This document shows positions 536-31,857 of a stretch of 32,386 nucleotides of DNA, piece after piece. This DNA comes from a virus. The stretch spans positions 1-32,386 of the IMG/VR virus record IMGVR_UViG_3300013129_001282. One strand, given 5' to 3'. The first letter of the stretch is position 1. Every line of letters starts with the position of its first letter. The notes beneath the pieces are model-generated. The model saw only the letters and a list, made by a program, of their open reading frames with translations, was not told the DNA's origin and made no database searches. The position numbers and the translations under genes are program-made.

Positions 536-733
536 ATGGGTGAGAACTGCAGGTCTCACCCTAACAAAGCAATCCGAGACTATGAACGCTTGACAGTTGA
601 TGATGGAACTGTTAGAATGTTACCACCACGATACTCCGAGTTTTCAGTTGACGAAAGAGTATGCTATACTGGAGAATGTAAATCCCTGGATGATGAAATA
701 AGATTAACTGCTCCGTGGCATGTGTCTCAGTAG
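536..733 (+). CDS. Small hypothetical protein ending inside tRNA-Arg
   Basis: A 65-residue protein (GTG 527 is an alternative start, three residues earlier) follows the RlpA-like gene after 9 bases. It is acidic and polar, with three Cys (one in the CYTGEC stretch), and has no signal peptide or membrane segment. I do not recognise a family. Its TAG stop (731-733) is the U8-A9-G10 of the following tRNA-Arg, so the last ten bases are shared with the tRNA gene. Continuity with the upstream gene favours a real gene, but codon evidence is limited by its length. Confidence 0.5.
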   Translation: MGENCRSHPNKAIRDYERLTVDDGTVRMLPPRYSEFSVDERVCYTGECKSLDDEIRLTAPWHVSQ

Positions 734-796
734 CTCAGTGGATAGAGCATCTGCCTTCTAAGCAGTTGGTCGCTGGTTCGACCCCAGCCTGAGACG
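724..796 (+). tRNA. tRNA-Arg (TCT)
   Basis: The acceptor stem GTCTCAG (724-730) pairs with CTGAGAC (789-795), with discriminator G796. There is a normal D-arm, an anticodon loop CTTCTAA giving TCT, and a T-arm GCTGG/CCAGC. It reads AGA, an A+T-rich codon. CCA is not encoded. Confidence 0.95.
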
Positions 797-816
797 CTCC
801 TTTACTAGAAAAAATT

Positions 817-975
817 ATGTCATTACTATCACAACAAGACCGCGAAATGGTTATCGAAGCACTAGAATATTATGTGCAAAGACTAAAAGATAACAACTGT
901 AACCAAGCAGCAGTAAGTTCTTTTCAGACACTTTTGAATTGGGTCGAGCTGGAGCATTATAAAAACGAAAAGTAA
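817..975 (+). CDS. Small hypothetical protein between tRNAs
   Basis: This 52-residue ORF begins at ATG 817 (MSLLSQQDREMV) and ends with TAA five bases before tRNA-Asn. It is predicted to be helical and amphipathic, with no Cys pair or membrane segment. It fills the gap between tRNA-Arg and tRNA-Asn almost exactly, as small cyanophage genes often do in tRNA clusters. No function can be assigned. Confidence 0.6.
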   Translation: MSLLSQQDREMVIEALEYYVQRLKDNNCNQAAVSSFQTLLNWVELEHYKNEK

Positions 976-979
976 TCTT

Positions 980-1051
980 TGGGGTGTAGCTCAGCGGTAG
1001 AGCGAGCGACTGTTAATCGCTTGGTCGTAAGTTCGATCCTTACCACCCCAG
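980..1051 (+). tRNA. tRNA-Asn (GTT)
   Basis: The acceptor TGGGGTG (980-986) pairs with CACCCCA (1044-1050), discriminator G1051. The anticodon stem AGCGA/TCGCT encloses loop CTGTTAA, giving GTT. The T-arm is GTAAG/CTTAC. The gene is complete without CCA. Confidence 0.95.
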
Positions 1052-1053
1052 TT

Positions 1054-1127
1054 GCTATTGTAGCTCAGTTGGATAGAGCAACGGTTTTGTAAACCGTAGG
1101 TCGTCGGTTCAAGTCCGACCAGTAGCT
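1054..1127 (+). tRNA. tRNA-Thr (TGT)
   Basis: The acceptor GCTATTG (1054-1060) pairs with CAGTAGC (1120-1126) with one G-T pair, discriminator T1127. Anticodon stem ACGGT/ACCGT encloses loop TTTGTAA, giving TGT (reads ACA). T-arm GTCGG/CCGAC. It lies two bases after tRNA-Asn, probably on the same transcript. Confidence 0.95.
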
Positions 1128-1135
1128 TATAAATA
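1128..1135 (+). promoter_or_regulatory. T4-like late promoter motif TATAAATA
   Basis: A perfect TATAAATA starts directly after the last base of tRNA-Thr, 18 bases before the ATG of the A+T-rich cassette. NATAAATA is the late-promoter motif described in T4-like cyanophages. In such A+T-rich DNA one chance match is possible, but the placement before a gene start supports it. Confidence 0.55.
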
Positions 1136-1153
1136 AAAAAAATAATATTGGTT

Positions 1154-1396
1154 ATGCTAAAAATTAGTAAAGAACATTTGAAAAAAAGTCAAGAGACTTA
1201 TGGCAGTCATTTAATTTGGGCAACCTATGCTGGGATCAAGATGATCTTGGTGGGATGTTCTAGTATTGTACATGGAATTGTTCCTGCATTTTTTCAAGGA
1301 ACTGCAGCTAAGACTGTTATTGATTTTTATCATAAACGTTTGGTAAATCATCCAAATAATGAATATCAAGACTATATCGATCAGTATAAAAAATGA
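1154..1396 (+). CDS. DUF6356-like small membrane protein
   Basis: An 80-residue protein from ATG 1154 (TTG 1148 would add two residues). The pattern HLKKSQETYGSH near the N terminus, followed by a hydrophobic helix at about residues 23-48 and then FQGTAAKTVIDFYHKRL, resembles the DUF6356 family, whose function is unknown. It is likely an inner-membrane protein with one or two helical passes. Its TGA overlaps the ATG of the adenylating enzyme (ATGA), so the two are probably translated together. It is the first gene of the A+T-rich cassette. Confidence 0.7.
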   Translation: MLKISKEHLKKSQETYGSHLIWATYAGIKMILVGCSSIVHGIVPAFFQGTAAKTVIDFYHKRLVNHPNNEYQDYIDQYKK

Positions 1397-2883
1397 TTAT
1401 TACTAGAGAAATTATTAACAAAAATATAAAATTTTATGATGTGAAGGTGCCAGGTCCAGATGAGGATGACCTCGATCCAGGGTGCTTTGAGTATACATAT
1501 AGCGATTTATCTATTGCAATAGATTTATATAAAAATTTACTAATAGATAATGGAGTATCTCCACAGGAAACAGTAACAATTGGAGAACTTCCCTCTATAT
1601 GGCAGATTGCTGCATTGTTTGCAGCATTTGAACTTGGATTAAAAGTTAGCATCAGTGATTATTATAAATCACCAATTGTATCAAGAAGCAAACACAAAAA
1701 ATTTGAATTGGATTCGAAAACAAAAGCATTGCTTCCAATAGATTATGCATTAAGAGATAAAAAACAGAATAGTAATAAATTATTATATAATACAAGGATC
1801 TCAAGTAAAGAAATAGTCCACAAATTTTCTTACCAAGATTTAAATTCTAATTCTATAGAACTAAAAAAATATCCTCATAATACAGAAGATGATTTTATAG
1901 CAGTAAAAAGTGCTACTAGTGGGACAACAGGAGCTCCAAAATGTGTGGAACATTCTCATCGTTTTTTGTATGAATTAGCACATAGGAATAGTAAATTATT
2001 TTCGGGAGATTATTGTTGTTATAGAAACCATAACTTTAATCATGGCAGCAGTTTATTTTGTTATATTGTACCGGCTTTAATTTCTAAAGATATATCCAAT
2101 TTTTATTCATTTGAAGGTAGAGATCACGTAGGATTTTTGCAGTTTATATCTTCATTAAAAAGAAAAACTCATCTAATGTTTCCATATATTACTCAAATTG
2201 AACACTTTTTAAATTACTTAAATGATGTTGATAAAAAATGTCCAAATATTATTGCTCATGTATTGACATTTATCCCTAAACCTTGGAAAAATGAGTTTTA
2301 TTCGAATAAAATAATTGGTGATGTTATTAGTAATTTTGGTAGTAATGAAACAACGGGACCAGTTTTCTTAAATAAACTTAGTGATGATCAATTTCTAGAG
2401 TGTCAATATAAATTAATTGATAATTTTTTTAAAGTCAAAATAGTTAGAACTGGATTGCAAGTTGATATGCCAGTATATAATAAATCTATTATAATGAATG
2501 ATAGATTTGAATCTAATGGAGCGAATTCTTTTGTTCATACAGGAAGATCTAATTTTATTAGAATTAATGATACTGAAGTGCAAATAGAAAAATACCAAAT
2601 TTTAATTGAAGAAACAATAAATGGAACTTTAGTATATGATCAAATTAGATCTAAAATTTATTTGGCAATATGGGATGTAAGTTATACTACTAAAGATACT
2701 AACATAACTTCACTTATCAATGATGCAAATGCTAAATTAAAAGATTTATCTTTATATAAACATTATATAAGTAAATATACAATTTTAAATTATGAAGATT
2801 ATCTTGGTGCAATAAAACTTGATATGGAAAAATTGCGAGAATATTTTAGAAATCCTGATGAAGATTATCAAACAATCGATTAG
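1393..2883 (+). CDS. AMP-forming ligase-like (ANL superfamily) protein
   Basis: This 496-residue protein carries the phosphate-binding loop TSGTTGAPK (175-183), the signature of ANL adenylating enzymes (acyl-CoA synthetases, NRPS adenylation domains). FGSNETTGP (315-323) fits motif A5, whose Glu helps bind ATP. HTGRSNFIRINDTEVQIEKY (382-401) resembles compressed motifs A7-A8, and Lys475 in LGAIKLDMEKLREY could be the C-terminal catalytic Lys. It probably activates a carboxylic acid as an acyl-adenylate; the substrate is unknown and no carrier protein is adjacent. The gene is very A+T-rich compared with the glycan operon. Neighbouring 2OG oxygenase and radical SAM genes suggest a tailoring pathway. 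Divergence means altered or lost activity is possible. Confidence 0.72.
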   Translation: MIITREIINKNIKFYDVKVPGPDEDDLDPGCFEYTYSDLSIAIDLYKNLLIDNGVSPQETVTIGELPSIWQIAALFAAFELGLKVSISDYYKSPIVSRSKHKKFELDSKTKALLPIDYALRDKKQNSNKLLYNTRISSKEIVHKFSYQDLNSNSIELKKYPHNTEDDFIAVKSATSGTTGAPKCVEHSHRFLYELAHRNSKLFSGDYCCYRNHNFNHGSSLFCYIVPALISKDISNFYSFEGRDHVGFLQFISSLKRKTHLMFPYITQIEHFLNYLNDVDKKCPNIIAHVLTFIPKPWKNEFYSNKIIGDVISNFGSNETTGPVFLNKLSDDQFLECQYKLIDNFFKVKIVRTGLQVDMPVYNKSIIMNDRFESNGANSFVHTGRSNFIRINDTEVQIEKYQILIEETINGTLVYDQIRSKIYLAIWDVSYTTKDTNITSLINDANAKLKDLSLYKHYISKYTILNYEDYLGAIKLDMEKLREYFRNPDEDYQTID

Positions 2884-2884
2884 A

Positions 2885-3352
2885 ATGGAATTGGTTCAGT
2901 TTTGTAATCAAGAAATAGATGCATTGATATCTGAGCGTGTTTGGTCGTCTAATCAGATTACCTGGGATGAAAGTTTATTTGCCGACATTCCAGGTATTTG
3001 TTTATCTGCAGATGTATCTTTTCTCTTAGAAAGAGAATTGAAGAAAGAATTATTACGTCATCTACCTAAGGTAGATAAGATTATTATTAATTATAATCTA
3101 TGGTTGAAAAATTCTGGTATTCGTTGGCATACAGATGCCAATTATGCTTTTGGTGCTACATTATATTTAAATGATTGGGATAAGAAGTGGGGCGGTTTGT
3201 TTTTATGGGAAGATGTAGATGAACAAATCCATGCGTTGTGCCCACAATCAAATGTGCTTGTAATAAATACGGAAGCAGAAAGTCATTCTGTAACACAAGT
3301 TTCTTCTATAGCGTCTTATCCAAGAAGGTCTTTACAAATCTGGGGAATATAA
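2885..3352 (+). CDS. 2OG-Fe(II) oxygenase-like protein
   Basis: ATG 2885, one base after the ligase stop, gives 155 residues. The iron triad is visible as H82 and D84 in RWHTDANY and H134 in ESHSVTQV, with R147 or R148 in PRRSLQIW as the 2-oxoglutarate-binding Arg. ATLYLNDWDKKWGG (91-104) matches the core of prolyl-4-hydroxylase-type enzymes, common in cyanophages. It likely hydroxylates a peptide or small molecule with O2 and 2-oxoglutarate. A longer reading from 2819 would overlap the ligase by 65 bases and is less likely. It sits between the ligase and the radical SAM gene, so shared substrate chemistry is inferred. Confidence 0.82.
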   Translation: MELVQFCNQEIDALISERVWSSNQITWDESLFADIPGICLSADVSFLLERELKKELLRHLPKVDKIIINYNLWLKNSGIRWHTDANYAFGATLYLNDWDKKWGGLFLWEDVDEQIHALCPQSNVLVINTEAESHSVTQVSSIASYPRRSLQIWGI

Positions 3353-3355
3353 TCT

Positions 3356-4471
3356 ATGAAAAATATTTGTAAATCTCCTTTTACTGGATTTGTTATTGGC
3401 ACACAAGGAGATATTTTTTATTGCTGTATGGGAATTCGTGATATCTATAAGATATCAAATATTAATGAAATTGATGATTTAGGAGAATTTTTTAAAACAT
3501 CTCCAGATCTTAAGAGTGTACGAAGAAAATTTATGGATGGTGAGTTTGAAAAAATTTCCCCGTGTTTTGAATGTCTTGAAAAGGAAAAAAAATTCATAAA
3601 AACATTTAAAGATAGTATCGATAAAAAATTTCCAAATAATATTGATGATATAAAACTTAGATACTTGGAATTAACCACTAGTAATATTTGTAATGCTGTC
3701 TGTTCAACATGTAATAGTTACTTAAGTTCTTCTTGGAAAAAATATGATAGTTTGTTTGGTAGAATAGAATTTCCTCTGCAAAAATTATCAAATTCTTCTA
3801 TTAATAAAATAAAAAATATTTTGTCAGGACTAGAATACATGATAATAAAAGGTGGGGAACCTTTTGCGGATGATAATAATATTTCAATTTTAGAAAATCT
3901 TTTTGATATTAATAAAGAATGCGAAGTTGCTATAGTAACAAACATGTCTTTATTGAGAGAAAATCATATTCGTGTCTTAAATAAAAATCCTAGTAAAGTA
4001 AATTTAACAGCTAGTATAGATGGAACTAAAGAAATTTATTCATGGATTAGAAGCACTGATTTTGATGTAGTAGTTGCAAACATGAAAAAAGTATATGATC
4101 AGACAGGAATAAGATTTGATATTAGCATTACGTTATCAATTTATAACTTCTTTAATATTATTGATATTATTGAATATTTTTCAAGTAAATTATATGTAAA
4201 ATCAATAGAATTTTCTAATATTTTGCACAAACCTGTAGCGTGTTCTATACAATCATTGCCTGAGAATATATTTAATATTCAAAAGAAAAAAATATATGAT
4301 AATAAAATATTTTGCGATAACGTAACTTCAGAATCATTTGAAAAATTAAATAATTTTTTGCATATAAAAGAAAATAAAGAGTTAGTTTTTGATCATATAC
4401 ATAAAATAAATCAAATCAGAGGATTTGATATTTGTGATTATGTTCCAGAACTTAAAGACTGGAGGGGTTGA
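3356..4471 (+). CDS. Radical SAM protein with Cys-rich N terminus
   Basis: The 371-residue protein has the radical SAM cluster motif C112-x3-C116-x2-C119 (CNAVCSTC), followed by KGGEPF (165-170), the SAM-binding GGE-type motif. The barrel continues with TNMSLL and ASIDGTKEIYSWIR. The N terminus carries C5, C23, C24, C70 and C73, suggesting a second iron-sulfur site like twitch or SPASM modules, though placed before rather than after the core. Related enzymes modify peptides, tRNA or sugars; the substrate here is unknown. The start ATG 3356 follows the oxygenase stop by three bases. The TGA stop lies inside the -35 box of the next promoter. Its composition is strongly A+T-rich. Confidence 0.85.
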   Translation: MKNICKSPFTGFVIGTQGDIFYCCMGIRDIYKISNINEIDDLGEFFKTSPDLKSVRRKFMDGEFEKISPCFECLEKEKKFIKTFKDSIDKKFPNNIDDIKLRYLELTTSNICNAVCSTCNSYLSSSWKKYDSLFGRIEFPLQKLSNSSINKIKNILSGLEYMIIKGGEPFADDNNISILENLFDINKECEVAIVTNMSLLRENHIRVLNKNPSKVNLTASIDGTKEIYSWIRSTDFDVVVANMKKVYDQTGIRFDISITLSIYNFFNIIDIIEYFSSKLYVKSIEFSNILHKPVACSIQSLPENIFNIQKKKIYDNKIFCDNVTSESFEKLNNFLHIKENKELVFDHIHKINQIRGFDICDYVPELKDWRG

Positions 4472-4496
4472 CAGAAAAATAAAATTTTGGTATAGT
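4468..4496 (+). promoter_or_regulatory. Sigma70-type promoter for second tRNA cluster
   Basis: TTGACA (4468-4473) and TATAGT (4491-4496) are 17 bases apart. The stop codon of the radical SAM gene (4469-4471) is inside the -35 box. It should drive tRNA-Leu, -Gly and -Val. Confidence 0.82.
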
Positions 4497-4518: not shown

Positions 4519-4551
4519 ATGGGCATGAGAGATCTGTAAGTCCCATTTTTT
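4519..4551 (+). terminator. Weak hairpin plus T-run before tRNA-Leu
   Basis: ATGGG (4519-4523) pairs with CCCAT (4542-4546), followed by six T ending at 4551, one base before tRNA-Leu. The stem is short and the loop 18 bases, so it may be an attenuator or only a processing spacer. Confidence 0.25.
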
Positions 4552-4633
4552 GTCGGTGTGGCGGAATTGGTAGACGCGCTGGGTTTAGGTTCCAGTGGGG
4601 TATCCCGTGAAGGTTCAAGTCCTTTCACCGACA
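4552..4633 (+). tRNA. tRNA-Leu (TAG)
   Basis: A class II tRNA with long variable arm. The acceptor GTCGGTG (4552-4558) pairs with CACCGAC (4626-4632), discriminator A4633. The anticodon stem CTGGG/TCCAG (one G-T pair) encloses TTTAGGT, giving TAG (reads CTA). Confidence 0.94.
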
Positions 4634-4719
4634 TTGGTACTCGCTAGGCAGATATCCTAGAAGGAGACCAAGTTAGATTGTTTGCGCTGGAAAGATAAAC
4701 CAGAATGCCGCAATCTTTC
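4634..4719 (+). other. Two tandem stem-loops between tRNA-Leu and tRNA-Gly
   Basis: An 86-base spacer folds into two hairpins. The first (4634-4671) pairs TTGGT-a-CTC with GAGACCAA and then CTAGG with CCTAG around a 7-base loop. The second (4675-4716) pairs AGATTG with CAATCT and CTGG with CCAG. Neither has a T-arm or anticodon arm, so it is not an intact tRNA. It may be a processing signal, a small RNA, or a decayed tRNA. Confidence 0.5.
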
Positions 4720-4794
4720 GCGGAATTAGTTCAGTGGTAGAACGTCAGCCTTCCAAGCTGAATGTCATCGGTTCAAGTCCGATATTCCGCTCCA
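4720..4794 (+). tRNA. tRNA-Gly (TCC)
   Basis: The acceptor GCGGAAT (4720-4726) pairs with ATTCCGC (4784-4790). The anticodon stem CAGC/GCTG encloses CTTCCAA, giving TCC (reads GGA). The discriminator T4791 is followed by an encoded CCA, and tRNA-Val begins immediately after. Confidence 0.95.
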
Positions 4795-4866
4795 GGGTGA
4801 TTAGCTCAGCGGTAGAGCATCTCGTTTACACCGAGGCTGTCGGCAGTTCGATCCTGTCATCACCCA
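4795..4866 (+). tRNA. tRNA-Val (TAC)
   Basis: Acceptor GGGTGAT (4795-4801) pairs with ATCACCC (4859-4865), discriminator A4866. The anticodon loop TTTACAC gives TAC (reads GTA). There is no gap after the encoded CCA of tRNA-Gly, so processing from a shared transcript is required. Confidence 0.94.
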
Positions 4867-8149: not shown

Positions 8150-8961
8150 TTTCTTTATACGGTGGCACTGGGTTTGTAGGTGGTAATTTCAGAAAGATGT
8201 ATGACGATTGCATAGAAATGCAACGTGATGAACGCAAACCAAAGACAAAAGACATTCTATATTTTATTTCTACGGTTGACAATTATAATGTTCATGATAG
8301 AATTACACTTGACGTAGAGACTAATCTAAAAGTCTTATGTGAAGTATTAGATCACTGTAGATCCGAAGACATTACATTCAATTTTATTAGTTCCTGGTTT
8401 GTATATGGTAAAACTTCATACATGCCAGCAAAAGAAGATGCACGTTGTGAACCAACTGGGTTTTATTCCATCACTAAACGCTGTGCAGAACAACTAATCA
8501 TGTCGTTCGCAGATACATATGGAATGAAGTATCGTATTCTTCGACTTTGTAATGTTCTTGGTGCTGGTGATCAAAAAGCATCTAGGAAAAAGAATGCTAT
8601 TACTTGGTTGATTGATGAACTCAAACTTCATCATGACATCAAACTTTATAACAATGGATCACATTGTCGTGATATAATGCACGTTCAAGATGTTTGTCGT
8701 GCAATCAAACTAGTTACCGACAAAGGTAACCTAAACGAGATTTATAATGTTGGATCTGGCAAACCAACATCAGTAGGCGAAATCATCCATCTTGCCAACC
8801 ACTATATAAAGTCGAAGGGTAAGATTGAGAACATGGAACCACCAGTGTTCCACAAGAATGTTCAGACAGAAAATTTCTGGATGGACACAAAGAAACTTCA
8901 ATCACTTGGATTTGAACCAAAACTTTCTTTAGAATTCATTGTAAAAGATTTATGTCTGTAA
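8146..8961 (+). CDS. NAD-dependent sugar epimerase/reductase
   Basis: ATG 8146 overlaps the rmlB stop and gives 271 residues starting MISLYGGTGFVGGNF, a nucleotide-binding Rossmann motif. FISSWFVYGKTSYMPAKEDA and YSITKRCAEQLI supply the Ser and Tyr-x3-Lys of short-chain dehydrogenases; NNGSHCRDIMHVQDVCRA and NVGSGKPTSVGE are typical of sugar epimerase/dehydratase folds. Between rmlB and an RfbH-type dehydratase, a role as 4-keto reductase like abequose or paratose synthase is plausible, but this is inference. It is shorter than usual (about 300 residues or more). Confidence 0.78.
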   Translation: MISLYGGTGFVGGNFRKMYDDCIEMQRDERKPKTKDILYFISTVDNYNVHDRITLDVETNLKVLCEVLDHCRSEDITFNFISSWFVYGKTSYMPAKEDARCEPTGFYSITKRCAEQLIMSFADTYGMKYRILRLCNVLGAGDQKASRKKNAITWLIDELKLHHDIKLYNNGSHCRDIMHVQDVCRAIKLVTDKGNLNEIYNVGSGKPTSVGEIIHLANHYIKSKGKIENMEPPVFHKNVQTENFWMDTKKLQSLGFEPKLSLEFIVKDLCL

Positions 8962-10268
8962 ACGACAAAGTAACAAATTTTATTTCACAACTTCAACGCG
9001 ATAAAGAAAACCTTTTCCCTTATCTTGCTAATAAAGATTGGAAGAAGGGTGATCAGATTTTCTATTCTGGTCCTTACTGGGATGAACGTGAAGTTGCTGC
9101 AGCGATTACAACGCTTTTAGAAGGTAAGTGGTTGCCTGCTGGTGAGGAAGTCAATAAGTTTGAACGAGCATTTTCTAAAATGTTCGATTTCAAGCATTCG
9201 GTAATGGTCAACTCAGGTTCTTCTGCGAACCTAGTCATGATTGCTGCACTAAAGAAATACTTTGACTGGCAAGATGGTGATGAGATCATCGTCTGTGCTT
9301 GTGGTTTCCCAACTACAATCAATCCAATTATTCAGAATGGATTGAATCCAATCTTTGTTGACATTGATTACAGTGATCTGAACTGGAACCTAGACCAGAT
9401 CCGTGAAAAGATTACAACCAGAACAAAGGCAGTATTCTCTTCACCTGTTTTGGGAAATCCCTACGACTTCGATAAGTTTCTCGATATTGTCCACAGGTAT
9501 AACCTTCATTACATCGCTGACAACTGTGATAGTCTTGGCAGTAGGTGGAGAGGTGATCTTCTTACCAAACATGCCGTCGCAGCGTCGTGTTCGTTTTATC
9601 CAGCGCATCATATCAGTACTATCGAAGGAGGAATGGTTTCCTCTAATATTGAAGAGATTGTCCAGATCGCTAGATCTTTTGCCTGGTGGGGTCGTGGATG
9701 CTACTGTGTAGGATCCCAGAATAAATTGCCCAACGGTGTCTGTGGAAATCGCTTTGACCGTTGGTTGGAAGGGTACGATAAGGATGTCGATCATAAGTAT
9801 GTCTTCGGCGTTCAAGGATACAACCTCAAGCCTGCTGACTTGCAAGGGTCTATTGGGCTCGTACAGTTGGAGAAGCAAATAGAGATACATGCTATCCGTC
9901 GTCTCAACAAAGCTCGACTTCATGAGATCTTCTCTAAGATCCCTGGTGTGAGGGTTATTGAAGAGAAAGAACATGCTGAAACCTCCTGGTTTGGAGTTCC
10001 TATTGTATATGAGGACGGTAAACCGAACCTTGTGAAATATTTAGAAGAGCATGGTATTCAGACAAGAAATTATTTCGCTGGTAATATTCTTGCACATCCT
10101 GGATACAGGCACATTGAACCAGCATCCAATTATCCTAACGCATCTAAGGTGTTAGATAACGTATTTTTCCTCGGATGTAGCCCAGTTATTACCCTTGAAA
10201 TGATTGGCTACATAGAAGAGGTTGTTGAAAACTATACAAAAAACAATTTACAATGGTATCCAGTATGA
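8952..10268 (+). CDS. rfbH: E1/RfbH-type 4-keto-6-deoxyhexose 3-dehydrase
   Basis: A 438-residue DegT/DnrJ-fold protein. The PLP-linking Lys of aminotransferases is replaced by His in SFYPAHHISTIEGG (His219-His220), the hallmark of the E1 dehydrase of 3,6-dideoxyhexose synthesis. Four cysteines, C192, C250, C252 and C264, resemble its [2Fe-2S] motif; the C192-x57-C250-x-C252 spacing matches the motif known for E1, while the last spacing is x11 rather than x7. It would remove the 3-hydroxyl of a 4-keto-6-deoxyhexose using PMP. ColD-type enzymes also have the His but lack the cluster. The partner reductase (E3/RfbI) is not seen here. The start overlaps the previous gene by 10 bases. Confidence 0.88.
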   Translation: MSVNDKVTNFISQLQRDKENLFPYLANKDWKKGDQIFYSGPYWDEREVAAAITTLLEGKWLPAGEEVNKFERAFSKMFDFKHSVMVNSGSSANLVMIAALKKYFDWQDGDEIIVCACGFPTTINPIIQNGLNPIFVDIDYSDLNWNLDQIREKITTRTKAVFSSPVLGNPYDFDKFLDIVHRYNLHYIADNCDSLGSRWRGDLLTKHAVAASCSFYPAHHISTIEGGMVSSNIEEIVQIARSFAWWGRGCYCVGSQNKLPNGVCGNRFDRWLEGYDKDVDHKYVFGVQGYNLKPADLQGSIGLVQLEKQIEIHAIRRLNKARLHEIFSKIPGVRVIEEKEHAETSWFGVPIVYEDGKPNLVKYLEEHGIQTRNYFAGNILAHPGYRHIEPASNYPNASKVLDNVFFLGCSPVITLEMIGYIEEVVENYTKNNLQWYPV

Positions 10269-24939: not shown

Positions 24940-26019
24940 ATGACTGCAACCATCGCTCAACAGCGTGGAAGCAATACTTGGGAACAATTCTGCGAGTGGG
25001 TAACATCAACCAATAATCGTTTGTATGTTGGTTGGTTCGGAACACTGATGATTCCTACCCTTCTCGCTGCGACTATCTGTTTCATTGTTGCTTTCATTGC
25101 TGCACCTCCTGTCGATATCGACGGAATTCGTGAACCCGTTGCTGGTTCACTAATGTACGGCAACAACATCATCTCTGGTGCTGTTGTTCCTTCTAGCAAC
25201 GCTATTGGTCTTCACTTCTATCCTATTTGGGAAGCTGCTTCGCTTGACGAATGGCTTTACAATGGTGGTCCCTTTCAACTGATTATTTTTCACTTCTTGA
25301 TCGGCATCTATTCCTACATGGGGCGTGAGTGGGAACTTTCTTACCGTCTAGGTATGCGTCCATGGATTATGGTTGCTTACAGTGCTCCTGTTGCTGCTGC
25401 ATCTGCAGTGTTCTTGGTCTATCCTTTCGGTCAAGGATCGTTCTCTGATGCGATGCCTTTGGGTATCAGTGGCACCTTCAACTACATGTTTGTTTTCCAA
25501 GCAGAGCATAACATTCTTATGCATCCTTTCCACATGCTTGGAGTTGCTGGTGTCTTCGGTGGTTCTCTGTTCAGTGCGATGCATGGTTCTCTTGTGACTT
25601 CTTCGCTGGTTCGTGAAACTACTGAAACTGAAAGTCAGAACTATGGTTATAAGTTCGGTCAAGAAGAAGAGACTTATAACATCGTTGCTGCACATGGATA
25701 TTTCGGTCGTCTGATCTTCCAGTATGCTTCGTTCAACAACTCACGCTCACTTCACTTCTTCTTGGCTGCTTGGCCAGTTGTAGGTATCTGGTTTGCTGCT
25801 CTTGGTGTTAGCACCATGGCATTCAACTTGAACGGGTTCAACTTTAATCAGTCTTTGATCGATAGTCAGAACCGTGTTATTCCTACTTGGGCAGATATTC
25901 TGAACCGTGCTGGACTTGGTATGGAAGTTATGCATGAGCGTAATGCCCACAACTTTCCTCTTGATCTTGCTACTGCTTCAACCACTGAAGTTGCTCTGAC
26001 TGCTCCAAGTATCGGATGA
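24940..26019 (+). CDS. psbA: Photosystem II reaction-centre protein D1
   Basis: Full-length D1, 359 residues with no intron. Key residues are in register: Tyr161 (YZ), Asp170, Glu189, His190, His198 (P680), His215 (iron/QB), His332, Glu333, His337, Asp342 and Ala344, after which 15 residues would be removed by CtpA. Residue 130 is Glu (MGREWELS), the high-light D1:2 type rather than Gln. Cyanophage psbA keeps host photosynthesis running during infection by replacing photodamaged D1. It has its own promoter, leader hairpin and terminator, so it is an independent, strongly expressed unit. The G+C content looks higher than that of the A+T-rich cassettes. Confidence 0.99.
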
Positions 26020-26835: not shown

Positions 26836-28035
26836 TTACCAAGATTTATAAACGAGTTTATTTGGGGTTGGGTGTAAAATTGCACTCGACCCCTTTTTAT
26901 TTGGAAAGTAATCTTTCTGTTCTCCTTCCCTTGCAATATCGCTAGTGATACCATGTAATCCTCCTTCCCAGAAATATCTGTGTCTGAAATTAATTACATG
27001 CGGAGATACTCCATGTCTTTCAAACGCTTCAAAAACTTCTTTGTTGTAATTGTTACAAATAATATTGTGTTCGTCAATGACTAACATGTTTACATCAAAA
27101 ACATCTTCCTCTACATAAGTTACCCAATCTTTCAACCAGGTTTCGACATAATCAATCAGATCGTTATTATACTCTTCTCCTGGAATCCACCATTTATCCT
27201 TATTTTTTCCTTTTAACTCTAAGAATGGTTTTACCTTTTTCCAACTTTGTCCTGGAAGGCTAATAACTTCCCATTCTGGAAAGGTTTCGGTATAGTTTTG
27301 CACATTGGCTAAAGAAATAATTAGACCTGGTTTTACAGGGCAAAATGATCCATCTGAATGTCCAATAATGTCTAAAACATGTGTTCTATAATTTGGAAAT
27401 AGTCTTTTTAGTTTTTCAATAAATCTATCTGGATTATTCTTGACAATATTGGTTATTGCAGAAAAATATAAATCTTTACCAACTCTTGTCATCCAGGAAG
27501 TGTTTATATACTCATCATAAACTATAGGAACGTTATTTGTGGTTAAAACTTCTTCTATAGTTGAAAATGCATAGTGATTTTTATTATTTTGAGTTTCTGC
27601 TGCGATTAAATTTTCTACAAATTTTGAATCTAAAAGCAGATTTGTAAATTCATATTTTTTAGCTAGTTTCTCACTACTATAATATTTTTCTACCAGTTGT
27701 ATAATATCAATATTACCATATTTTTTATCTGGCATATAGAATGTACCACCAACCATTGCGGTATGATTTCTTGGACACATAGGTGGTGGCATTGGAATGC
27801 CATCATTTTTGATGTGGTCTTCAAAATTTTCTGATATATCAGTTCTAACCACCGTTACACCAAATTCTTCTAACTTAGATATAAGTTTCTGATAATCTTC
27901 TTCTGTTTCAATTGCAATGCGTTCCATAACATTGCGAACTTTTGGATTTTTTATACGAGAGTAAAACTCTGGAGGATATGAACGACCTACCGCACAAACT
28001 TTCAAAGGATCCCAATGCTGATGTACGCTAAACAT
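26836..28035 (-). CDS. Amidinotransferase-like protein lacking catalytic Cys
   Basis: A 399-residue protein, the only convincing minus-strand gene here. WDPLKVCAVGRSYP at the N terminus, MCPRNHTAMVGGTFYMPD (86-103), IIGHSDGSFCPVKPG (His226, Asp228) and FWEGGLHGITSDIAREGE (355-372) follow the glycine/inosamine amidinotransferase pattern. In that family the last motif is GG-x-HC-x-T, with Cys forming the amidino-enzyme intermediate; here residue 362 is Gly (GGT codon). A Cys-free relative may be inactive or do other chemistry. The gene is A+T-rich and convergent with the lipase, suggesting separate acquisition. Its promoter is not clear. Confidence 0.8.
   Translation of the reverse strand: MFSVHQHWDPLKVCAVGRSYPPEFYSRIKNPKVRNVMERIAIETEEDYQKLISKLEEFGVTVVRTDISENFEDHIKNDGIPMPPPMCPRNHTAMVGGTFYMPDKKYGNIDIIQLVEKYYSSEKLAKKYEFTNLLLDSKFVENLIAAETQNNKNHYAFSTIEEVLTTNNVPIVYDEYINTSWMTRVGKDLYFSAITNIVKNNPDRFIEKLKRLFPNYRTHVLDIIGHSDGSFCPVKPGLIISLANVQNYTETFPEWEVISLPGQSWKKVKPFLELKGKNKDKWWIPGEEYNNDLIDYVETWLKDWVTYVEEDVFDVNMLVIDEHNIICNNYNKEVFEAFERHGVSPHVINFRHRYFWEGGLHGITSDIAREGEQKDYFPNKKGSSAILHPTPNKLVYKSW
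26864..26898 (+). terminator. Terminator for the lipase gene, inside the opposing gene
   Basis: GGGGTTGGGTG (26864-26874) pairs with CACTCGACCCC (26883-26893) over 11 pairs (two G-T), then five T (26894-26898). It lies 33 bases after the lipase stop but inside the 3' end of the minus-strand amidinotransferase-like gene. Confidence 0.8.
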
Positions 28036-30237: not shown

Positions 30238-30420
30238 ATGCGTTACACTGAAACAATTCGCCTAGTAAAAAAAGCACTAGAGCAACCCTGGAAATATTCT
30301 GATGCCGAACTTCAATATATGAAAATGGCATTAGATAAAGCTATTCTTGGGCTAGCAAGAAAAAAATTTGAAAGAAAAAAGAAAAAAGGATTTGGTTACG
30401 ATGACAGTACGATTGATTAG
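30238..30420 (+). CDS. Small basic protein upstream of thyX
   Basis: A 60-residue protein with a good Shine-Dalgarno. MRYTETIRLVKKALEQPWKY and a helical middle (DAELQYMKMALDKAILGL) lead to a basic tail RKKFERKKKKGFGYDD. I believe similar short proteins are common in cyanophages; no function is known. Its last 20 bases overlap the thyX start, implying coupled translation. Confidence 0.75.
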   Translation: MRYTETIRLVKKALEQPWKYSDAELQYMKMALDKAILGLARKKFERKKKKGFGYDDSTID

Positions 30421-31036
30421 TGTGACGCCAGATGCAGAACAAACAATGGCGTATGTTGCTAGGGTTTCTAATCCAGCAAATCAAGATAATGAAAACTATG
30501 CAGGCTTGTTACGTTATTGTATTAAGCACAATCATTGGTCTGTTTTTGAGCAGGCTTTTATGACGCTTGAGATTGAAACTAACCGTGGGATTGCAGCGCA
30601 AATTTTACGTCACAGAAGTTTCACATATCAAGAATTTTCCCAACGTTATGCCGATACAAATCTTTTGAGTGATAAAATACCTCTTCCAGAACTTCGTCGT
30701 CAAGATACTAAAAACCGTCAGAATTCTATTGATGATTTAGAAGAAGACAAAGTTTTTGTGATGAACAAGATGATTGAGGACTTGTTCAAGGATGCTCAAC
30801 AGGTTTATAATTTTCTACTAAGTCAAGGTGTTGCTAAAGAATGCGCTCGTTTTGTGCTTCCTCTTGCAACTCCTACGCGTATTTATATGTCTGGATCTGT
30901 GCGTTCTTGGATACATTATATCAATCTTCGTTCTGCAAACGGAACTCAGAAAGAGCACATGGATATTGCAAATGAATGTAAGAAACTGTTTGTAGAACAG
31001 TTTCCTGTGGTATCTGAAGCACTTGAGTGGAATTAA
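30401..31036 (+). CDS. thyX: Flavin-dependent thymidylate synthase
   Basis: ATG 30401 gives 211 residues with the ThyX signature RHR-x7-S (R70 to S80, RHRSFTYQEFS). NHWSVFEQAFMTLEIET precedes it and LPLATPTRIYMSGSVRSW follows. ThyX makes dTMP from dUMP with methylene-tetrahydrofolate and FADH2; the phage uses it for DNA synthesis, with nrdC nearby serving the same need. A longer start at 30368 would add 11 residues unlike the family. It overlaps the gene before by 20 bases and shares a TAATG junction with the gene after. Confidence 0.96.
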   Translation: MTVRLISVTPDAEQTMAYVARVSNPANQDNENYAGLLRYCIKHNHWSVFEQAFMTLEIETNRGIAAQILRHRSFTYQEFSQRYADTNLLSDKIPLPELRRQDTKNRQNSIDDLEEDKVFVMNKMIEDLFKDAQQVYNFLLSQGVAKECARFVLPLATPTRIYMSGSVRSWIHYINLRSANGTQKEHMDIANECKKLFVEQFPVVSEALEWN

Positions 31037-31857
31037 TGGATAAACCAATATTTTTATTTTGTCCAGGAGTAGCAAAATCTAGCACGACTTTGCTTGCAAA
31101 CATACTTTTTCAAAATAAAGCATTTAATTTTGGATATTTTAAAGAATGTTTTTATTTAAATTTTGTTTTTTATGGTGAAAAAAATGTTCCAAAAACATTT
31201 GAAAAATTTTTGCCAAAGTACATGGAAAAAAAATCTAAATCTAAGTATTTGTATGCCGATTTTGATAATTTTTCTAAAAATCATACTATTGAAAACTATT
31301 GTAAGTATTACATAGATGTTTATAAACAAACTCAGTTTGTAGGTGGTGTATGTGATTTTTCTCAATCATATAATCTATTGCCAGAAAAATTTTTAAATGA
31401 AGTAAAACATGAGTTAGAAAAAGTTTTTGACGTAAAATGTATATTACTTTTTAGAGATCCTATAAAAAGGTTGTTTTCGTTTTCCAATATGATCTGTCCT
31501 GATGATGCAAATAATTTTTTCTTAGATAATATGCGGACAAATGATATTGAGTTTAGTTCAAATTATTATCAATATGTAATTGAAAAATTTGAAAATATTT
31601 TTCCTACCAAAGATATTTTTATTTCATCTATGGAAGAAATGTATTTAGAAAATTCATTTGAACTTTTAAAAATATTTTTAAATTTAGAAACACTAGAAAC
31701 ATCAAAAATAATAGAAACATCTAAAAATTCTGCGACATATAAACAAAAACTTTCCGAAGAAGAAATATCATTTGCTAAGAAAAAACTATATGGAAATTAT
31801 GAATATTGGAAAAATAAATTTGGATCCCTCCCATCTGAATGGTATCAAGTAATATGA
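31036..31857 (+). CDS. Sulfotransferase-like protein
   Basis: A 273-residue protein in an A+T-rich stretch, ATG 31036 (TAATG with thyX). PGVAKSSTTLLANIL (10-24) fits the 5'-phosphosulfate loop with Lys14, and ILLFRDPIKRLFSFS (136-150) the 3'-phosphate-binding motif with Arg140, so PAPS is the likely donor. The substrate is unknown; a glycan, lipid or protein is possible. The composition suggests a different origin from thyX. The stop overlaps the start of the next gene (ATGA). Confidence 0.75.
   Translation: MDKPIFLFCPGVAKSSTTLLANILFQNKAFNFGYFKECFYLNFVFYGEKNVPKTFEKFLPKYMEKKSKSKYLYADFDNFSKNHTIENYCKYYIDVYKQTQFVGGVCDFSQSYNLLPEKFLNEVKHELEKVFDVKCILLFRDPIKRLFSFSNMICPDDANNFFLDNMRTNDIEFSSNYYQYVIEKFENIFPTKDIFISSMEEMYLENSFELLKIFLNLETLETSKIIETSKNSATYKQKLSEEEISFAKKKLYGNYEYWKNKFGSLPSEWYQVI

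Follow-up and report, generated by a model that had tools for sequence, protein, structure and literature searches.

A ligase-DUF6356 gene pair as the likely core of a variable, tRNA-flanked, putative tailoring cassette in a cyanophage

Comparison of a tRNA-flanked gene slot in a psbA-bearing cyanophage fragment (32,386 nucleotides, referred to as the window) with the same slot in related phages indicates that its four-gene cassette is not one indivisible unit. Its likely core is the pair formed by an AMP-forming ligase and a small DUF6356 protein. The pair recurs in many uncultured viruses beside other tailoring enzymes, and thus has the look of a viral modification module that has yet to be described.

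The slot is held between two clusters of tRNA genes predicted by ARAGORN on the plus strand: tRNA-Arg(TCT), tRNA-Asn(GTT), and tRNA-Thr(TGT) at 724..1127 form its left border, with a 52-aa ORF between tRNA-Arg and tRNA-Asn, and tRNA-Leu(TAG), tRNA-Gly(TCC), and tRNA-Val(TAC) at 4551..4866 form its right border. Four tightly packed genes of the same strand lie between them: (i) the DUF6356 protein (1154..1396, ATG start at 1154, 80 aa; PF19883, E=9e-15), (ii) the ANL-superfamily ligase (1393..2883, ATG at 1393, 496 aa; PF00501, AMP-binding, E=5e-12), whose start overlaps the DUF6356 stop by 4 bp, (iii) a 2OG-Fe(II) oxygenase (2861..3352, about 163 aa; PF13640, 2OG-FeII_Oxy_3, E=7e-8), whose gene overlaps that of the ligase, and (iv) after a tight spacing, a radical SAM enzyme with an N-terminal twitch domain (3356..4471, 371 aa; NF033640, N_Twi_rSAM, E=5e-56). 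Both the coordinates and the tRNA calls agree with the arrangement described in the earlier note, and all four of its gene identities were recovered as family matches, the membrane nature of DUF6356 being only probable. The note had also pointed to tRNA genes as a common landing site for acquired DNA; there is no sign that the cassette integrated at a tRNA, since the tRNA genes here form a cluster native to the phage and do not flank the pair in its other contexts.

A T4-like late-promoter motif, TATAAATA, occupies positions 1128..1135 of the plus strand, directly after tRNA-Thr, with the start codon of DUF6356 following 18 nt later. As an enriched motif it was rejected by its count in the window (6 found vs 3.9 expected by chance). 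Its position nevertheless backs it as a promoter, because it is kept in the same place in two related loci, L003 and L016, and is missing from a third, L096, that lacks the DUF6356-ligase pair; the proposed late promoter is therefore favored by its conserved place and not by its frequency. The right edge of the slot is marked by a sigma70-type promoter, TTGACA-17-TATAGT (4468..4496, plus strand, 11/12 match), that precedes the right tRNA cluster; it is kept in L016 and L096, whereas only its -10 part is left in L003, which has no radical SAM gene.

The ligase is, by its motifs and fold matches, a complete ANL enzyme with both N- and C-terminal domains. The SGTTG.PK motif (S176, G177, T178, G180, P182, K183) is invariant in 15 aligned homologues, as are the A5/A7/A8 residues FG..ET.GP (G316/E319/T320), D370, and G384-R385, and the C-terminal K475, which was taken as the A10 lysine from motif position only. 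The AF2 model (pLDDT 80.7) has ANL enzymes as all its top PDB fold matches, and these span both domains. The fold, the P-loop SGTTG.PK, FG..ET.GP, the A7 Asp, the A8 GR.D, and the C-terminal Lys region are thus shared with acyl-CoA synthetases, NRPS adenylation domains, and fatty-acyl-AMP ligases; however, the ligase is only 9-15% identical to solved ANL enzymes, its branch differs from the known ones in size (about 440-520 aa) and in a conserved ITREIINKNIKF-like N-terminus, and it did not reach the cut-off of any curated ANL subfamily model. Its best viral relative in BFVD is 20% identical. In the full-length profile comparison with the Legionella FAAL only the N-terminal part aligned, so this comparison does not assign the ligase to an ANL subfamily. 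Two scans of prokaryote genome contigs, by a method that needs exact conserved peptides, returned no relatives.

DUF6356 is probably a small membrane protein, as suggested by a hydrophobic helix with a borderline mean hydropathy of 1.7 over 19 residues and by the AF2 model (pLDDT 94.8), which is all-helical (helices 2-12, 16-42, 50-63, and 69-79) and has no fold match in PDB. Its Pfam score is 55 bits against a gathering cut-off of 24.4, a clear match to a family of small proteins of proteobacteria. A role as an acyl or peptidyl carrier found no support and was rejected: Ser37, an invariant residue, falls within the long helix 16-42 and not in a carrier-type DSL motif. Whereas the phage copies pair with the ligase, cellular copies lie near exporters (sulfite/sulfate or LysE) and Lrp/AsnC regulators without a ligase, or, in Legionella lytica, stand beside a FAAL-ACP-ComA fusion and a serine-palmitoyltransferase-like enzyme in a sulfonolipid-type locus.

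In the oxygenase, the HxD...H iron triad (H82, D84, H134) and the distal Arg, R147, are invariant with the homologues of the cyanophages S-SCSM1 and S-H9-2 and with L003. The start at 2861 is most likely, given that L003 and L096 share the N-terminus MKIIKQSIR...; an alternative start at ATG 2885 is possible. The radical SAM enzyme matches NF033640 (phrog_14086) over its full length and above the curated cut-off (190.5 vs 170 bits). This model name carries no function, and the member in the window is set apart by adjoining the ligase-DUF6356 pair. Its CxxxCxxC motif is C112-C116-C119; Cys 5, 23, 24, 70, and 73 are also invariant in homologues, and the N-terminal cysteines are SPASM-like. Its PDB sequence matches to death-associated kinases were taken as chance. 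The active-site residues of all three enzymes are thus invariant in homologues; for the ligase and the radical SAM enzyme, the earlier note had made its proposal depend on this.

The same four-gene order, on whose recurrence the earlier note had likewise made its proposal depend, was found in a second phage, complete in L016 and cut at the contig end in L018. The left cluster has the order Arg/Asn/Thr in L003 and L016 and Asn/Thr in L096, and the right cluster Leu/Gly/Val is present in all three. The slot varies in content: all four genes in the window and in L016, no radical SAM gene in L003, and neither DUF6356 nor ligase in L096. DUF6356-ligase and the radical SAM gene were therefore gained or lost independently, contrary to the single four-gene pathway assumed before. 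The slot was not seen in the examined stretches of the nearest public records, AG-345-D19 and AG-345-E15.

Identity among the slot relatives is 91-94% for DUF6356, 76-86% for the oxygenase, 52-60% for the radical SAM enzyme, and 34-48% for the ligase; between the window and L016, DUF6356 is 94% identical while the ligase is only 34% identical. The slot ligases do not form one clade, and the phylogeny of the ligase conflicts with its place in a shared slot (AU p=0.0135), which suggests that the ligase was replaced within it. The supposed A+T-rich cassette holds for the ligase and the radical SAM gene (GC 0.267 and 0.247) but not for the block as a whole (DUF6356 0.317, oxygenase 0.337, window 0.353). 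The two markedly A+T-rich genes are also the divergent ones, and the gene-by-gene pattern is repeated in L003 and L016. A putative sulfotransferase gene at 31027 is equally A+T-rich (GC 0.238).

Beyond the slot, a scan with a ligase profile, made without use of DUF6356, yielded 65 viral loci, from which 49 different ligases were kept. DUF6356 is encoded in the locus of 35 of them, all on uncultured viral contigs; the two genes overlap or lie at most 24 bp apart in 32 of these 35 pairs, in both gene orders. The ligase is missing from five phage loci that do encode DUF6356 (L033-L037). Ligase, DUF6356, and whole-cassette DNA had no match among 50,697 phage records. The neighbors of the pair differ between phage groups. 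Two twitch radical SAM genes follow it in L046-L055, L057, L058, and L060. In L031, an amidinotransferase-like gene precedes it and a flavoprotein of the tryptophan-halogenase family (PF04820, E=2e-59) is added, with relatives of this arrangement in L062 and L064-L067. In talC-type phages, DUF6356-ligase stands directly before cupin-RmlB-epimerase-DegT-family genes, in some with a 4-bp overlap. Several ligase-DUF6356 contigs are rich in radical SAM matches, with about 8-12 per contig, and in such phages a radical SAM neighbor is less telling.

We tentatively interpret the cassette as a modular, probably late-expressed phage tailoring system that would combine acyl activation with tailoring at the membrane. 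The ligase would use ATP to convert a carboxylic acid, either amino-acid-like or a fatty acid, to an acyl-adenylate; DUF6356 would tether either the ligase or the acceptor to the membrane; the acyl group would be handed over, directly or via a host thiol (for example CoA or ACP), to an acceptor that is part of the cell envelope or of the virion; and the oxygenase and radical SAM enzyme would hydroxylate or otherwise alter the acid or the conjugate. Products may then differ with the version of ligase and radical SAM enzyme that occupies the slot, a pattern to be expected if diversifying selection acts on a surface or chemical trait. The Legionella lytica locus, in which DUF6356 stands beside an acyl-activating enzyme outside phages, speaks for this interpretation; the cellular and phage DUF6356 genes that lack a ligase, and the radical SAM relatives found away from any ligase, speak against it. 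A broader and somewhat bolder proposal is that ligase-DUF6356 might form the center of a conjugation system, widespread in phages and so far undescribed, in which a phage-specific ANL branch and its dedicated small membrane partner attach activated acids to acceptors of the envelope or the virion, and exchangeable radical SAM, 2OG, amidinotransferase-like, or halogenase modules diversify the product.

A competing possibility, to which we give a little less credence, is that DUF6356-ligase alone forms a functional unit, and shares a gene-exchange hot spot between tRNAs with separate cargo genes, those of the oxygenase and the radical SAM enzyme. The separability of the radical SAM gene and the pair around a constant oxygenase (L003, L096) fits this possibility, as do oxygenase homologues (36-37% identity) among tRNAs or replication genes of the isolates S-H9-2, S-RIM32, and S-SCSM1 without a ligase, and 35% identical radical SAM relatives at another genome position near thyX, with no ligase nearby (L099-L102). 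However, the ligase/oxygenase overlap, the tight oxygenase/radical SAM spacing, the full order kept in L016, and the radical SAM or oxygenase-like genes adjoining the pair in several other phage groups weigh against it.

It is unlikely that the cassette decorates a sugar of LPS or of a virion glycan with an acyl group supplied by the ligase, a reading prompted by the talC-type arrangement and by the same nucleotide-sugar cluster in the window from 6849 on. The DegT-family gene of this cluster is RfbH-like (NF011936, E=1e-105, below cut-off) and has His in place of the PLP lysine. It therefore probably acts as a 3-dehydrase in making a 3,6-dideoxyhexose, and not as a PLP aminotransferase that makes an amino sugar, which weakens the idea of amino-sugar N-acylation. 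In the loci examined, the cluster is also missing from the two-radical-SAM group and from most of the amidinotransferase group, and no dedicated acyltransferase was seen.

SPASM/twitch radical SAM enzymes often act on peptides or proteins, and the NF033640 match with its SPASM-like cysteines would suit modification of a phage or host protein by the radical SAM enzyme and oxygenase, with the ligase attaching an amino acid or acyl group. This is improbable, because no clear precursor candidate occurs among the slot ORFs of at least 50 aa, the talC phages have the pair without a radical SAM gene in the locus, and no subfamily model places the ligase. The likeness to a natural-product or peptide pathway seen in the earlier note is not borne out, either by a precursor among these ORFs or by carrier domains: PF00550, expected within an NRPS-type adenylation system, was absent from the window and from all 12 related viral records, which may be fragments, while controls were positive. 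Modification of tRNA or other nucleic acids, suggested by the tRNA clusters flanking the slot in the window, L003, L016, and L096, is highly improbable, given that in the other phage groups examined no tRNA cluster accompanies the pair and that none of the four proteins matches a known tRNA-modifying family above cut-off.

If the tailoring interpretation is right, marine phages own swappable chemistry by which a target in the envelope, the virion, or metabolism is altered, with a ligase branch that searches of the sensitivity applied here did not find in phage records or reference prokaryote genomes; DUF6356 would gain a testable partner, and the slot would provide a natural set of ligase swaps for mapping substrate choice. 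Phage-encoded enzymes of specialized chemistry have precedents, cited in PMC10452541, in the halogenases of cyanophages (VirX1, Gkotsi 2019) and in biosynthetic gene clusters carried by phages (Dragos 2021). The cassette of the window differs from these in having neither a halogenase nor a carrier-dependent assembly line, while a tryptophan-halogenase family gene does adjoin the pair in L031 and L062. The contigs rich in radical SAM matches resemble the T4-like marine phage genome TARA_ERS488813_N000010, for which 12 radical SAM genes were reported (PMC5332604); that source, in the part considered here, treats the load of Fe-S genes and not a ligase-DUF6356 module.

Judged by its gene content, which includes psbA (24940-26019) and a thyX-like gene (30368-31036), the 32 kb IMG/VR virus record is a cyanophage fragment, and its psbA-thyX end is similar to many Synechococcus and Prochlorococcus phages. 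The earlier note had described four tightly joined genes flanked by two tRNA clusters, and this layout was confirmed. Between tRNA-Arg/Asn/Thr (724-1127) and tRNA-Leu/Gly/Val (4551-4866), all on the plus strand (1154-4471), family searches identified genes for DUF6356 (1154-1396), an AMP-forming ligase of the ANL superfamily (1393-2883; 4-bp overlap with the DUF6356 gene), a 2OG-Fe(II) oxygenase (2861-3352, overlapping the end of the ligase gene), and a twitch-domain radical SAM protein (3356-4471).

Comparison of the tRNA-Thr to tRNA-Leu slot among viral contigs revealed several features of the cassette: (i) all four genes are present in the window, its near copy L002, and L016, so the four-gene order recurs complete in L016, and L018 has it up to a contig end inside the last gene, (ii) the slot of L003 lacks the radical SAM gene and, with it, the -35 element of the promoter that lies downstream, and (iii) the slot of L096 lacks DUF6356 and the ligase. 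TATAAATA directly follows tRNA-Thr wherever the slot carries DUF6356-ligase; in L096 it is absent, and the oxygenase starts 10 nt past the tRNA. From these absences and border changes, the cassette is read as a constant oxygenase with two optional modules around it.

The proposed A+T-richness of the cassette held for the ligase (GC 0.267) and radical SAM (0.247), but not for DUF6356 (0.317) and the oxygenase (0.337), which are near the rest of the window; composition is thus gene-wise, with the same contrast in L003 and L016. A putative sulfotransferase-like gene elsewhere in the window (31027-31857; labelled by eye, no NCBIfam match) has a GC of 0.238 and so equals the cassette ligase and radical SAM genes in A+T-richness. 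Within the cassette, divergence is concentrated in the A+T-rich genes: identity between the window and L016 is 94% for DUF6356, 76% for the oxygenase, 52% for the radical SAM, and 34% for the ligase, and with L003 it is 91%, 79%, and 48% for DUF6356, oxygenase, and ligase, respectively. A tree of 37 rows groups the ligase of L016 with talC-group ligases (97/94 support), apart from those of the window and L003, a placement to be read with caution given the long L016 branch; a single clade of the three slot ligases was rejected by the AU test (p=0.0135). The slot ligase has probably been exchanged; that its evolution simply sped up is less likely.

The cassette enzymes look intact, with active-site residues conserved, a check that the earlier note had set. 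The ligase P-loop (S176, G177, T178, G180, P182, K183) and G316/E319/T320, D370, G384-R385, and K475 are invariant among 15 aligned homologues, and the PDB matches of its AlphaFold model (mean pLDDT 80.7) are headed throughout by ANL enzymes. The oxygenase retains H82-x-D84...H134 and R147, and the radical SAM protein C112xxxC116xxC119 plus five N-terminal cysteines. The DUF6356 model (confidence 94.8) has four helices, one of 27 residues, and no fold match in PDB; for a membrane helix, its hydropathy is marginal.

Scanning viral contigs with a ligase profile gave 65 loci. DUF6356 was found in the locus for 35 of the 49 different ligases kept, and in 32 of these 35 the two genes overlap or lie at most 24 bp apart, in either order. 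A DUF6356 scan, itself seeded with ligase-linked copies, yielded 25 loci, 20 of which have the ligase. Neither protein had a match among 50,697 phage records, and two scans yielded no ligase relatives in prokaryote genomes at the sensitivity of the search. Four contexts were distinguished: (A) transaldolase-DUF6356-ligase, then cupin-RmlB-epimerase-RfbH-like genes; (B) ligase-DUF6356 followed by two twitch radical SAM genes; (C) amidinotransferase-like gene-ligase-DUF6356, accompanied in L031 and L062 by a flavoprotein of the tryptophan-halogenase family and in others by a small protein, 2OG-oxygenase-like by eye and without a Pfam match; and (D) ligase, PhyH-type oxygenase, more genes, and DUF6356 (L069, L070). 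The amidinotransferase label reflects resemblance alone, with no Pfam or NCBIfam match. The core-clade ligases of L044 and L059 lack DUF6356 and are surrounded by low-complexity phage genes.

The window protein at 26836-28035 (minus strand; no Pfam or NCBIfam match) is a distant relative (22%) of the amidinotransferase-like gene of L031 and has relatives (49-53%) adjoining psbA in L099, L100, and L126. In L099, L100, L101, and L102, psbA-bearing where long enough, 35% relatives of the cassette radical SAM occupy a second position, before thyX, without a ligase. In viral contigs L091-L094, a MoxR-like ATPase, a distant AMP-ligase, and a tryptophan-halogenase-like protein stand in a row; in L091, genes judged by eye to be desaturase-like and ketosynthase-like come next. 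The arrangement has the look of a small cluster of lipid or polyketide type.

All four families are already named, and each cassette protein qualifies as a member of its own. The viral structures nearest to the cassette ligase are ligases of uncultured phages at no more than 20% identity. Published work describes marine T4-like phages that carry many radical SAM genes (PMC5332604), and halogenases of cyanophages are covered by a review (PMC10452541). Several ligase-bearing contigs hold many radical SAM matches too: G001, G006, G007, G009, and G010 (contigs of L031, L065, L066, L074, and L062, respectively) each have ~8-12 twitch radical SAM profile matches and are radical-SAM-rich phage genomes. 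No description of the ligase-DUF6356 pair was found in open-access literature. Given named families, phage parallels, and a pair for which no description was found there, we place the cassette with the auxiliary or surface chemistry carried by phages, and it may well be more than that.

At the sequence level, the enzyme families with intact active sites, the gene pairing, and the modular exchange are established. In the proposed mechanism, the ligase would activate an acid to an acyl-adenylate, with DUF6356 as a putative membrane partner; acyl transfer would proceed without a dedicated carrier (PF00550 had no match in 12 related records and the window), neighbouring enzymes would perform oxidative tailoring, and the target may be the envelope or virion. 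In the window sugar cluster, the DegT-family gene (8952-10268) is RfbH-like, with the PLP lysine replaced by His (SFYPAHHISTIEGG) and Cys192/250/252 present; the probable product of the cluster is therefore a 3,6-dideoxyhexose.

A hint in favour of this mechanism comes by analogy from the Legionella lytica plasmid locus L177 (1118-6264), which is of sulfonolipid type, where a serine-palmitoyltransferase-like enzyme, a FAAL-ACP-ComA fusion (fatty-acyl-AMP-ligase/ACP/phosphosulfolactate-synthase), a ComB-type phosphatase, and, downstream, DUF6356 stand in a row. Against this hint, other cellular DUF6356 copies adjoin sulfite/sulfate exporters (L179, L182), a LysE exporter, or Lrp/AsnC regulators (nearby in L178, L179, L181, and L182) without a ligase; the comparison covers six plasmid loci, a small and biased sample. 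A link of DUF6356 to sulfur compounds is possible.
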